Shown here: piece by piece, positions 16,901 to 61,900 of the stretch
Numbering within the stretch: the first letter of the stretch is position 1
How the letters are laid out: every line of letters starts with the position of its first letter
Source of the DNA: Sipunculus nudus
Lineage: Eukaryota; Annelida; Sipuncula; Golfingiida; Sipunculidae
Length of the DNA stretch: 64,000 nucleotides
Assembly (NCBI GenBank): GCA_026874595.1
Contig: CM049320.1
Location: 7,879,464-7,943,463 of the forward strand
Direction: 5' to 3'
Position numbers and translations under genes: made by a program
Notes under the pieces: generated by a model
Databases searched by the model: none
What the model was told of the DNA's origin: nothing
The model's input: only the letters and a program-made list of their open reading frames with translations

Positions 16901-19900
16901 TCTTTTACAATATATAATGAAAATATGCACATTCCCAACATAAAATATCCAACTCCTTCATGGAAAATTCATTTATTTACAATTTATACAGAAATAATGC
17001 ACATATCCAGTGAATATTTATCTTCAATTCTGCAGTTGGTGGTCATCTATTAGTAAATACAAGTTCATGTACAGTTGAGTCAAACAATATTTTGTTTAGA
17101 AAACACAGCTCCTGGGCCTGTAGATTGGAACATCCATGTAATCATTATTAAGACTTCTGAATTTCAGCTTTTTACAAGCATGGTGCCATGAAATTATCAT
17201 CCAGAGAAGTCTAATGAAAATAGTAAACTAACTTATCATTAGAGAGAATATGACGTTTCATAAAGATTTTACCATTTAATGGGATTGCAATGATGCTTTA
17301 TCTGGCAGTTCTATTTACAGCTGTACCAAAGTCATCTAAACATCTTTGGATGATCACAACTGGTGGCGGCAGTTCCAGAGATATTGGGGTGACACACCAA
17401 TCCATAGGTTTGTGATCAATTTTAATTTACGCAGACATACATATAATTTCTGACAGCATTTTTTCATTTTCATTTGCAAGTCAACTCATTTTTCACACCT
17501 TGAGTTCACACCTTGCATGGCACTCACCAAACATGTTAAGTAAACTTGGGTTACGCTTACAAATTTGACATTTCTCTGTACGTGATAACACTCACTGTCT
17601 CTGCAGGAATGCTGTGAGCTTCTGCTGTCTCCTGATCAGTTCTACAGTTTTCCTGTGACAGTAGACAAATAAGGCACCACCAAACCCACAAACAATGCTG
17701 AAATGGTATATAATGATCTGTTAAATGTAAATACTATAGAAAATGATGAGATGGTAAACAACTAGATATTTCTTGGCACTGCAGGTGCCATAGTATCCCC
17801 AGACAATCTCACCCCCCCCCCCCCCCTTTAAGAATAGGCCTTCCATTTTCAGCAGTATATACTGACACCTGGCAAGCAAATATGGTTTCTTCCATCTATC
17901 ATCTTTAAAAACAATATTTTTCACCAAATATAAGGGCCAATACAGTGAATCACTCTTGAGAAAAGAGCATTAATTTATTTTACAGAAACTGGAAGGTAGG
18001 TGGCGCCACCTGTCTGGTTTATGAGAAAACTTTCAAAGATGGATGGACATGCCATATTTCAGACCAATACCTTGAACCACTCTGGAGATATGAGCAATGA
18101 TCACCCAAAGCATATGTACAAATGGATGCCACTCCAAAACTAATGCAGATGGCACCACCAGTCTTGAGTATAAGATGGAGGTGTCCAAAATCTATGGATA
18201 TGCACAACTTCAGGCTAATAGGGCAAATCACTCCTCAGAAAAGGGCAATAATTTATTTTACAAAAACGGGAAGGTAGGTGGTGCCACCTGTCTGATTTAC
18301 AAGAAAACTTTTCAAGATGGATGGACATGCCAAATTTCAGACCAATACCTTGAATCACTCCAGGGATATGAGCAATTTTCACGTACCACAATTATGATTG
18401 CATATAGCGCCACCAGTCTTGAAGACAAGATGGAGGTATCCAAGATCAATGGACATGCACAATTTCAGCCCACAGTTTTTCCGGGAAAAATCAGAATTCT
18501 CATTCTTTCTGGAACAAGTGACCCATGGGTCATGACGCTCAGCTGCCAAGCATGACCTTTGACATCATGGACTGAGATTCACAACTTCCAGTCAAATTTT
18601 GAAGAACCAATTTGCCAATTTGTTGAAAATTTTCTATGACAACAGAAATATATATCACCTATGTCTGGTTAAAACACAGTGAATTGATGGTCTGAGGAAA
18701 ATGCATGATTGTTAAGCTATCAGGAACTATTCCAACAGCTTGCTTGAAACCTGTCAGTCTCAAAGGAACACCACAAAGGGAAAATATAAGATCAAAATAT
18801 ATAGCAAAAATCAAGGAAATACATGCAAGAATTATTGAGAAGCAGGTGCTTCTGTATGAATTTTTATTCATTACAAGCCAACTGTACTGCACTTTTATAA
18901 ATGATGGTAATATTTATTCAGAAATATTTGACCCAATCCTTTACAAGATTACATAAATATACATCCAACTGCATTCACTTTAACTGTTCTTGAGATAATA
19001 TGATCAAAAGGAATTAAAAGATGGTTGCCTGGTAGCCATATTGGACTTCTGACAAGTCTGAAATCAGACAACAAACATTCTCTAAATTGGACCAAACATT
19101 AAAGAAAAATTACTGAAACTGCACTGAAGAAAGAATTTCTAAGGTGGCTAACTGGCAGACATTATGGATTTCTGACAAGTATGACATTTGATATCCCACA
19201 TTCTCCAATAAGAGACCAAATTTGGGAAAATTATCCAGTAATGAATGCCCAAAATAATTCAAAAGGCATGTCCAGGCCCTCATATCAGATTTATAGATAT
19301 GCAATTGTAAAAAGTGTAAGTCCAATATTTTTTGTTATCACTCTGCTTTTCAATGGGGTCAGCAGGGTAGGTAAACTGCCAAACCTGAAAGAAAAGAAAT
19401 GCAGAAAGCATGACTAAGAGTCTTGAAATAAAACAAAAAGCCATCCTAAATCAAGGTACACATCCACATATTATGAGAACAAACACTTGCTTTTATATGT
19501 GGTGATATATATTTAAATATTCAGATATCTAGGAAACTAAGTTTATTGCTAGGATTCCATAAAATAAACTGCAAAATGTTCCCTTCATCTTATAAATCAG
19601 TAGCTAAACCTTAATACTATACTCTCATAGTCTTAATGCCTGGCTGAAGCATTCTGACAACAGTGTTTTTGTTATGAAGTAACGAGGTACTTATCACTGA
19701 GCCTTATCACTTAATAGGCTGATACAAAAGGGAGTCATATGTCACCAGTGTCACTCACAATTACAGCCACACAGGGAGATGTACCAGCTGGAGTGGGATG
19801 GTTATATATACAAGAAAAATAGAGATGGTCTATAAAATAAGTAATTGTGAACATCCCTGACCTATGACCTTGGCCTTTTGCCCATATATCAACTGGATTC

Positions 19901-58900: not shown

Positions 58901-61900
58901 TATCCACGGGGGGAAACGGTATTTATCCTGTGTCCATTCGTGGGTGAAGTTCAAGTACATCAACAGAGACCTTGCAAAGGAAATAGTAGTTCATATTAGG
59001 CAGGGCTTTGGTTTTGCCATTTTGGAGATAACAAGTTTGATTTAAGATAAATGAATTAAGAAAAAGTTACAGTTTGTAGGAAAAAAAATAGATATCTTGA
59101 GATAAGTAAGCAAAAGGTAGAGTTATATCTGAAGATTTCAATTAGGACAAACAGTATTATGTAGTGTTAGAGTTTGTAGATTGTAACTTTGAATTAGACT
59201 AAATGTACCAGAAATAGAAAGAGTTATACTTTCAGATGAACACTTTGAGTCAATGATACCTAATTCACCATGCCAGTTTCAGGTGGATTGTGTTACATAA
59301 TGTAGACACCAAACCTGCTTAAGGATACAGAAGTAATGAATAGAGCTGCAGTTTGTGATGAAAAGAAGCTATACCAGTATAAGGTATTGTATAAGTTTGT
59401 AGAGGAAACTCAGAAATATACTGGTCAGTATGACTACATGAGGTATAATTAGACAGATTCAGAATATACCCGCATGTGGTCAAGTCACAGTTGTAGATGA
59501 AAGTTAAACTTGAAATATACCAGCACAAGGAAGAGTTACAATTTGTAGACAAAACTCAAATTTAGAATGTACCAGCATAAAATAGAGTAACATTTTAATG
59601 TGAAACTAAAAACTTAGAATATACCAGAATGTGGTCAAGTCATCGATTGTAGATGAAAGTTAAACTTAGAATATATGGTGAAAGGTAGAGAGTTAGTTTG
59701 TAGACAAAACTCAAACTTAGAATATATGACCCTAAGGTAAATTTACATGCTGATTTCATGTGAAATTAAATATTAGAATATAATAGCATAATGTTAAGTT
59801 ACTGTTTGTAGATGAAACTCAAACTAAGAATATACCAGCATGAGGTAGAGTTACAGTTTGTACATAAAAAAACTGACCAGGATACACTATCGTTAGGTAA
59901 GGTCACACTTGTAAATGAAGACCTTCATATAATATGTGAGCAGTAGAGACACTGAAAAGTTTGATGTAGATACTGAAATGATAAGTATTTTGATAAATCT
60001 CCTGTAAAAGACTAATATTACAGTCTGCAGAAATACATACTGATTACAAGAAAACTGCAATAACCAGCAGATTTAAGCAGAACAAAAGGTGTTCATTACA
60101 TTGAAATAAACAGTTACTAGATCCAAAGGTAACAAAACATAAAGAGAGAATAAATTTACAATATATTAAACAAAAATAAGAGAGTACAATATATTAGTAC
60201 ATTGTTAGTTATTAGAAGAGATGATAAAGAATATGATTAAAGTCATGTCAATGGAATTAAACCACAAGTAAAAATTTCAAACTTATTTGTGAAAATGAGT
60301 TGAACAGAAAACAGGAAAATGAAGCAGAAGTATAGCACATAAAGGCCTAAAGAGGATAACACGGTTAACAGAATGGGCATAAATAAAAATCATATTAAAT
60401 AAATAATCTATGAACCAAAAAGTACAAAAACAGGTTCTGACAGAAAACAGCCTGTTAGTGTTGAGCATGAATCAGCCATCAGCCAATCAGCAAGAACTTT
60501 TAAGGTCAAGGTCATTAACCAGGGTCAAGGTCGCACACCTCACCTCTTGTGTCTGGGACTGGGATGGTGATTTCAATGAAATCTTCCCCTGGTGAGTGTG
60601 ATCAGAAAGTCACTCAGGTCAAGAATCAGATTTTTTATTTTAATACAATATATATATATTTATTTGTGTATCAGAGATATTAATATTAGTAAATATGTTC
60701 TGTATAACAGTAACTTATACATTCGGTGCACCATGTGTGTATCATAAGGCTGTGGATATGTACAAATGGCTGACAGATACTGTTGTATATTACAATTACT
60801 TTTACAATGAAACCATTGAATTATGACATTTTGACCTTTTTTTTTTAATTGAGTGATGTCAGAGATTTCACAATGGATGTTTCAAGGATCCCATAATTCA
60901 TGGATTAGAATACTGTAAATATCATGCATGTATTCAGTTATGATTATTTATACAAGCAAAGAAATGTGTTGTAAAACTAGAATACGGGTAGTCGACAAGC
61001 GACTACGTGTATCCGCCTAAATCAGAGTGGAACGGGTGAAGTGAGGCATGGATTGAGTGGCAAGGAAAAATAGAGTGTTGCATGTTAGCATGGATGTCTG
61101 CAGCCAAATTGTGTATGTAGGTTGCCCCCCCCTACCACAAAATCCAGAAAGCTGTCCAAGTTGTATACATATGCAAAATTTAAGGCAGATAAGTCAAACC
61201 ACTACATGTAAATGAGTGATTTTAGCCCGTGGCAGACAAACAGATGGACGCTGAGCAAAAATGGTTGCAGGTGACGCCACCAGTTTTGCGTATGGTAAAG
61301 AGCTATGTGAGATCTATACACATGCAAAATTTTGGCCCAATCGGTCAAACGGTTCCCGAGATATGAGCTTGGATGTCTGCAGCGTAAACGTGAATGTAGG
61401 TGGCGCCACCTGTCATAAAATCAGAAAAGCTATCCAGGATGTATATGCATGCCGAATTTCAGGTGAATTAGTCAAGTCACTGCAGAGATATGAGTGATTT
61501 TAACCCAAGGCAGACGAACAGATGGACACTGTGCAAACATGGTTGCAGGTGGCGCCACCATTTTTTGTGTATGTTATAAAGCTCTCCAAGGGCTACATTT
61601 GTGCAAAAAAATTTTCCTGATCGGTCAAACGGTTCCCGAGATATGTGGGTTTATGTGTGGAAACAGAGGAAAGGTCAGAGGTCAAAACAAAATCGGGGTG
61701 CAGCAGTTCACATGTGACCCGAACATAATCCCGGGTTTCCTAAAATTCCGCCCAGCGGTTACAGAGGAGTTCTCCGGACACCTACGCGGCGGCGGCGGCG
61801 TGCAGCTGAAAACATAGTATCCGCAAAACTCTGTTTTGGCGGATACAATTAAATGTAACAGAAATATCTAGTGAGAGAACTAAAAAACAGATTTAACTAA

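Follow-up and report, generated by a model that had tools for sequence, protein, structure and literature searches.

Unrelated families of Helentron-like elements in Sipunculus nudus share one layout and an imperfect 5' hairpin

Introduction

Non-autonomous Helentrons (HINEs) spread satellite-like arrays in many animal genomes. DINE-1 of Drosophila contains 13-bp subterminal inverted repeats (subTIRs), a partial inverted repeat beside the 5' one, a GTCY microsatellite and a 3' stem-loop (PMC2374699, PMC4067079). Cg_HINE of the Pacific oyster is composed of a 5' subTIR of 11-12 bp, a complementary inverted repeat, a GTCY/GTCC microsatellite, an array, a 3' subTIR and a palindrome (PMC7492417). 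Joined ends of FoHeli, an element of Fusarium, were detected by polymerase chain reaction (PMC5148889). Here we analyse a 64,000-nucleotide stretch of the Sipunculus nudus assembly (C15:7879464-7943463, hereafter the window), which harbors three repeat families, A, B and C, of this general layout.

Imperfect hairpins are bound by the HUH enzymes of two prokaryotic systems, TnpA-REP/REP and IS200/IS605. In REP of Escherichia coli, activity depends on a conserved mismatch and was lost when the mismatch was repaired; imperfect palindromes are bound by IS608 TnpA, and the orientation of IS200/IS605 follows the direction of replication (PMC8266576, PMC5934647, PMC5371812). The 5' hairpins described below bear on how Helentron enzymes recognise ends without a common sequence.

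Results

An unpaired position common to the 5' hairpins

In families A, B and C, and in a fourth family, E, located elsewhere in the assembly, an inverted partner lies beside the 5' subTIR (S). The initial annotation had described the S hairpin as exact S plus its complement; the pairing is in fact imperfect in all four families. The hairpins read as follows (outer arm, unpaired position, inner arm, loop, inner arm, outer arm).

Family A: AGCTCAG - C.T - TGACT - ATA - AGTCA - CTGAGCT
Family B: GTATCCGC - bulged C - AAAAC - AGA - GTTTT - GCGGATAC (which of two adjacent bases bulges is ambiguous)
Family C: ATGCCCC - C.C - GCCAC - AAA - GTGGC - GGGGCAT
Family E: GCTTGCCG - bulged G - AAATC - TTC - GATTT - CGGCAAGC

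All four share one geometry, in which an outer stem of 7-8 bp and an inner stem of 5 bp are separated by a single unpaired position, with a 3-nt loop at the tip. The flaw was noticed because a first architecture scan, which required a perfect 5' hairpin, returned 0 rows. It is retained within A, B and C. Among the matches listed, the flaw position of A is complementary in 0 of 99 distinct copies, and the flaw of C is kept in 98 of 100. Family B has 5,603 sites with the bulge versus 4 that are bulge-free, and the bulged base is C in 100 of 100 listed matches; family E has 1,327 exact 5' hairpins, and the bulged base is G in 97 of the 100 listed.

A sequence-blind search for the hairpin geometry (shape scan) over 355,655 bp gave 21 matches, compared with a mean of 0.2 in shuffled sequence. 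Nineteen of them belong to A, B or C and two to E. Because the scanned loci were selected by their A and C ends and Rep genes, the 19 matches partly reflect that selection; the two E matches do not. A flaw common to unrelated families, one of them gene-carrying, suggests that the enzyme recognises shape and not sequence. Recognition of the 5' hairpin through its geometry we judge to be about as likely as not.

The flaw could instead be functionless, each family stemming from one founder, with long perfect palindromes being unstable and lost and imperfect ones surviving. The near-invariance inside families is what descent predicts, and perfect C hairpins do exist, yet are rare (2 of 100 among the matches listed). 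Descent and instability do not readily account for the agreement of four unrelated sequences in the place of the flaw as well, 5 bp from a 3-nt loop, or for the perfect 3' palindromes of the same elements. We regard a functionless flaw as possible but rather doubtful.

Layout and class of the families

The initial annotation had proposed three sequence-unrelated families with one blueprint, which our analysis bears out; in each of A, B, C and E, S matches its partner. Its 5' and 3' ends have to be exchanged, since the published HINE/DINE-1 order appears on the other strand. Once reversed, the elements lead from a T-run through the S hairpin, a GTCC-type run, the tandem array, S' (the 3' partner of S) and a palindrome to a terminal CTAG or CTTG followed by T. 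The terminus is CTAG in B and C and CTTG in A. S is 12 nt long in A, 11 nt in C and E, and consists of a 9-nt core in B (11 nt with its neighbours). The 3' palindrome is present in A, B and C (motif scan) and in E; in A, B and C it is perfect, unlike the 5' hairpin. The 5' module carries a GTCY-type microsatellite in A and C and GTCTGTTT in E. The annotated tandem array stands, and the linker holds for A and C, where it is of the GTCC type, whereas B possesses a CCG-type run and no GTCC linker.

This layout matches Cg_HINE and DINE-1, in line with the Helentron/HINE likeness noted at the outset, and A, B and C are almost certainly non-autonomous Helentrons. The blueprint itself is already known, because it is in print for DINE-1, HINE, Cg_HINE and FoHeli; A, B, C and E appear to be new members of this kind. 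Canonical Helitrons (Helitron1: 5' TC, A/T insertion, no subTIR) were considered and rejected, as the 5' ends here are AG, GT or AT, the target is a T-run and subTIRs are present.

Cut-and-paste elements with terminal inverted repeats, similar to miniature inverted-repeat transposable elements, would also have inverted repeats at both ends, a high copy number and no coding capacity. However, one of the inverted repeats here is subterminal, lying behind the palindrome and CTAG/CTTG, no clear target duplication is seen at empty sites, and a Helentron gene lies inside family E, which has like ends. A cut-and-paste origin is accordingly very improbable.

Element copies in the window

The window contains six near-complete copies (three A, two B, one C), as annotated initially; its motifs and coordinates agree with our reading of the sequence and motif scan. 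Strands below are given for the element after turning it round.

18515..20946, minus strand: family A copy A1, 5' at 20946, with CTTG 18515-18518 at the 3' end, 3' palindrome 18519-18532, 3' S' 18537-18545 and a decayed 5' hairpin 20917-20946 (sequence, motif scan)
21358..24763, plus strand: family A copy A2, with 5' hairpin 21358-21386, GTCC-type run ~21402-21436, 337-bp array 21434-23410, S' 24731-24739, palindrome 24746-24759 and CTTG 24760-24763 (sequence, motif scan, architecture scan)
23411..24581, plus strand: family B copy B2, inside A2, with 5' hairpin 23411-23440 and a decayed 3' S'
39067..44845, minus strand: family A copy A4, with 5' hairpin 44817-44845, GTCC-type run ~44779-44793, 337-bp array, 3' S', palindrome and CTTG 39067-39070
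42074..43791, minus strand: family C copy C1, inside A4, with 5' hairpin 43763-43791, 180-bp array 42142-43707, S' 42097-42107, palindrome 42080-42094 and CTAG 42074-42077
60977..61846, minus strand: family B copy B1, with 5' hairpin 61817-61846, an array bearing GGTGGCGCCACC sites, S' 61009-61017, palindrome 60988-61006 and CTAG 60977-60980
26264..26292, minus strand: lone family A 5' hairpin, remainder of the copy not delimited
17999..18300, no strand assigned: orphan B-like array remnant carrying GGTGGCGCCACC, no ends found

The two nested copies, B2 and the family C copy, each lie in the orientation of their host A copy. A profile search found no PF14214 match within C15:7879464-7943463, consistent with the initial view that the window contains no replicase and that a partner in trans is required. 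Rfam gave 0 matches at gathering score on the window.

Copy numbers, boundaries and insertion sites

Exact motifs were counted over the whole 1.43-Gb assembly (1,426,538,692 bases in 153 contigs, a eukaryote-sized genome), and the reversed-pattern control was 0 for each. The A 5' hairpin occurs at 23,447 exact sites (about 1 in 100 rows listed is a second reading of the preceding row) and the A 3' motif at 8,731; the B 5' hairpin occurs at 5,603, the C 5' hairpin at 2,909 and the C 3' end at 2,092. Among the C 3' ends listed (contig C1, below 28.3 Mb), 34 of 62 have a correctly oriented 5' hairpin within 7 kb, and the spacing between the two ends in these 34 paired copies is 279-3,677 bp.

The architecture scan, which looked for S, a matching S' 150-9000 bp off, the palindrome and CTNGT, covered the window and 76 loci; selected by their A and C ends and Rep genes, these loci are not a random sample. 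Of the 13 rows that the scan returned, one is false and the other 12 have A, B or C at each end; the sequences read backwards gave 0. Two of the 12 rows represent the same copy, and one links the ends of two different A copies.

Similarity between copies stops at the CTAG/CTTG boundary in 38 loci, so this end, as proposed initially, coincides with the limit of repetition. A T directly follows the matched end in 27 of 30 C loci and 7 of 8 A loci. For B, a copy present in L046 corresponds to an uninterrupted T-run in L043 and L045; for C, a copy present in L066 is absent from L068. The insertion target is therefore a T-run (TT), with no clear target duplication in this one B and one C empty site, and exactly how many Ts were gained or retained is ambiguous. 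In L066, the C copy has inserted next to or within a Helitron-like gene, at its repeated N-terminal portion, and the L068 gene is free of this copy.

Family E and the Helentron Rep genes

The assembly contains 143 matches to the Rep profile PF14214, whereas none of 14 control genomes has one. Along L045 and L074 lie OTU, Helitron_like_N, PIF1 and Exo_endo_phos domains, and both E matches of the shape scan adjoin Helentron genes. A matching E 3' end (CTAG, palindrome, S') stands downstream in the same stretch as the new 5' hairpin. On contig C8, the 5' hairpin (80149597-80149626) and the 3' end (80128783) of E lie 20,844 bp apart with a gene between them, encoding DUF6570, OTU, Helitron_like_N, PIF1 and Exo_endo_phos domains and running antisense to the element. 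This E copy thus combines Rep, PIF1 helicase and endonuclease in one gene inside matching ends, as expected of a Helentron. An antisense gene is likewise described for some published Helentrons.

With up to 2 mismatches, S of E occurs at four places in this 24.6-kb stretch of contig C8, namely the pair flanking the gene, one further 5' hairpin, and a 3' end belonging to an adjacent E copy. These extra ends would fit an insertion event in which one E copy entered the TTTG run of another. In addition, a 2.1-kb gene-free E copy is located in L078, where an array of about 1.2 kb is common to both copies (88%), and a short E element adjoins L046.

Further E copies and Rep genes show clustering. Five E 5' hairpins on one strand of contig C1 (19449791-19454989), spaced 1,292-1,293 bp apart, represent head-to-tail copies. 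Among 13 Rep places on contig C1, 12 cluster at 63-72 Mb, and 42 of 100 E hairpins among the matches listed cluster at 63-68 Mb (the listed matches reach 84 Mb).

An autonomous element of this blueprint is therefore present in the genome, but with E ends. The search for autonomous copies suggested initially succeeded for E and yielded none with A, B or C ends: in the flanks of five Rep loci of the same clade (L041, L042, L043, L045, L046), element ends were reached only at L045, and these are E ends. When 30 Rep loci were scanned for exact A, B or C ends, a single C copy came to light, inserted next to the gene.

Arrays and further families

Each 337-bp monomer of A contains the palindrome AGGTGGCGCCACCT a single time; in B it recurs at intervals of ~130-150 bp, and a further array family has it too. 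Genome-wide it has 41,719 exact sites, compared with 0 for the reversed control and 0.43 expected by composition. It lies in the arrays of A2, A4, B1 and B2, at ~17999-18300, and in loci L008, L009, FL025 and FL028, and is absent from A1 and from the family C copy of the window. Apart from AGGTGGCGCCACCT, the arrays carrying it are unrelated.

This palindrome bears on whether A, B and C are deletion derivatives of one ancestor with diverged ends, the blueprint being shared by descent and not by convergence. Geometry and order are identical throughout, B, C and E end in CTAG, and the A and B arrays have a 14-17 bp palindrome in common, as such an origin would lead one to expect. Beyond that motif, however, neither ends nor arrays are similar, and S drifting under an inherited blueprint would still require that pairing be kept. 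We consider common ancestry a serious possibility, falling a little short of an even chance.

Several further observations concern the arrays and ends. The sole match to GGTGGCGCCACC in the literature text searched is a paper on a bacterial chitinase. A second, unrelated array type lies between C ends (L010, L014, L015, L016, L027, L036), as is likewise described for some Cg_HINE groups. A sub-family of A, with the 3' end AACAAGGGACCCATGGGTCACGGCGCTCAGCTG in the orientation of the initial annotation and an interior of its own, is common in flanks, for example in L002, L004 and L007. A family D has 5' ends composed of a T-run, a weak stem around ACCTGTG and a GTCC-type run (L008 at ~1290, L009 at ~1269, L013 at 300-370), and its 3' end was not found. 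The A1 interior (~20156-20600) and arrays beside Helentron genes (L076, L077) contain runs like TGACCTTTGACC and TTGACCTTGACC, seen by eye. We take these runs to be direct AGGTCA-type half-sites resembling nuclear receptor sites.

Orientation of neighbouring copies

Orientation was compared on contig C1 (0-42 Mb) from the first 100 matches listed per search, and significance was obtained from random block shifts. At the left end of the contig (96 kb-1,175 kb), 58 of 59 A 5' hairpins among the matches listed point one way, and in this block of ~1.1 Mb the listed B (14/14) and C (10/10) elements all point that way too. Along the contig, listed copies of different families lying 10-50 kb apart agree in 38 of 47 A-B, 47 of 57 B-C and 30 of 35 A-C pairs, agreement that was reached by 1, 3 and 0 of 2,000 block shifts, respectively. 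Without the first 1.3 Mb, the corresponding values are 26/35, 36/46 and 17/22 (19, 17 and 13 of 2,000 shifts), and the pooled agreement at 10-20 kb is 29 of 31 among the matches listed. Unrelated families thus tend toward the orientation of their neighbours at 10-50 kb.

A broader reading would be that the Helentron Rep reads a sequence-free hairpin shape, whose unpaired base gains a partner when the ends meet, and inserts with a polarity set by the chromosome (fork or transcription), giving orientation domains by analogy with IS200/IS605. Three results weigh against such domains. Agreement is near chance at 50-100 kb; copies without a listed neighbour within 10 kb agree in only 7/9 (A-B), 10/14 (B-C) and 4/8 (A-C) pairs, mostly not significant; and the fresh stretch at 14.6-42.1 Mb gives 8 of 13 A-C pairs at 10-50 kb, also not significant. 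The same stretch gives 40 of 56 A-C pairs at 100-200 kb (64 of 3,000 shifts). On the insertion strand, the flanks show a slight excess of T (skew 0.029 +- 0.012; 104 T6+ runs versus 80 A6+ runs), and several flanks of the left-end block are HINE interior; nesting in T-rich arrays may therefore explain part of the agreement. No repeated spacing indicating tandem duplication was found in the left-end block, no non-HINE repeat was found to serve as a negative control, and no report tying Helitron orientation bias to replication or the lagging strand appeared in the literature text searched. Nesting in T-rich arrays, transcription and replication direction could each contribute, and we hold the broader reading as a whole to be rather unlikely. 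Should orientation domains be confirmed, old HINE copies would preserve, like fossils, the strand polarity of the chromosomes that carry them.

Discussion

Pairing between the two ends and a proposed mechanism

The 5' S and the 3' S' pair perfectly over 9-12 nt in A, B and C and over 11 nt in E, and the base left unpaired in the A, B and C hairpins is paired in this end-to-end duplex of each family. Pairing is kept while S changes between A, B, C and E, so the covariation between families that had been put forward as a test of the blueprint is observed.

We propose the following explanation. A Helentron Rep (HUH nuclease and helicase), provided in trans, would nick the 5' end, guided by the geometry of the hairpin, in which the unpaired base would serve as a landmark. 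With the hairpin read in this manner, S would be free to drift between families. After the nick, a single strand would be peeled off, and the 3' palindrome would signal the end. When the two ends meet or have been circularised, S could pair perfectly with S', and this pairing may present the CTAG/T junction for a second cut or for integration into a T-rich single strand. Taken as a whole, this explanation (HINEs, Rep in trans, a hairpin read by geometry, S:S' at joined ends) is probable in our view.

Several observations weigh against it. The only autonomous copy found bears E ends, and not A, B or C ends. Retention of the flaw inside a family may be descent from one founder, and the B and E patterns are of fixed length, so that the base counts alone are no test of the bulge. 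Among the 34 paired C copies, 25 are unchanged, 9 are altered at one end and 0 at both; the covariation is therefore one between families and not within C. When the ends are joined in silico, S:S' is the best fold in two of four copies, clearly in the B copy 60977-61846 (-24.6 kcal/mol) and narrowly in the A copy 39067-44845, whereas the local hairpin is best in the other two; with the ends in linear order, local hairpins are kept in all four. Of the two alternative folds envisaged initially, the S:S' form thus appears at joined ends in half of the copies, and the local hairpin prevails elsewhere. We consider a functional switch between S:S' and the hairpin somewhat less likely than not.

Comparison with known systems

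The Pearl elements of bivalves, with short arrays and a microsatellite between conserved ends, are built similarly to the present families. Family A may resemble Pearl in particular; Pearl is mentioned in the account of Cg_HINE (PMC7492417).

Cg_HINE is close to A, B and C in the order of its parts, TT insertion and nesting in other repeats, and its same ends are likewise combined with unrelated arrays (PMC7492417); this comparison is one of published descriptions. Its authors were unable to connect the oyster elements with an autonomous one (PMC7492417), whereas family E represents a gene-carrying element of this blueprint within the same genome as its non-autonomous relatives.

DINE-1 and the mite HINE agree with A, B and C in their subTIRs (13 bp or 12-15 bp), partial or interrupted inverted repeat, TT target and Helentron partner; the portions of these reports available do not mention a constant hairpin geometry in which unrelated families have one base unpaired (PMC2374699, PMC4067079). 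FoHeli/Helitron2 of Fusarium has asymmetric terminal inverted repeats inside hairpins, as observed here, and FoHeli1 and FoHeli2 are printed with 5' hairpins in which ~5 bp carry a 3-nt GAA loop, similar to the inner part of ours. FoHeli differs in being fungal and autonomous and in its insertion site, and the accessible text does not report an outer 7-bp stem (PMC5148889).

The available Helitron literature on hairpins, bulges and subterminal repeats, including PMC5371812, PMC5876387, PMC8266576 and PMC2374699, likewise does not state a fixed geometry with one unpaired base across unrelated families, and the sharing of the flaw appears new. TnpA-REP and IS200/IS605 are prokaryotic, without helicase and with other ends; the likeness to A, B and C is one of working, and not of membership. 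Two findings merit further attention, the flaw that the families share and retain and the family, E, that carries the gene; a shape common to four unrelated families and retained in thousands of copies offers a concrete hypothesis for binding.

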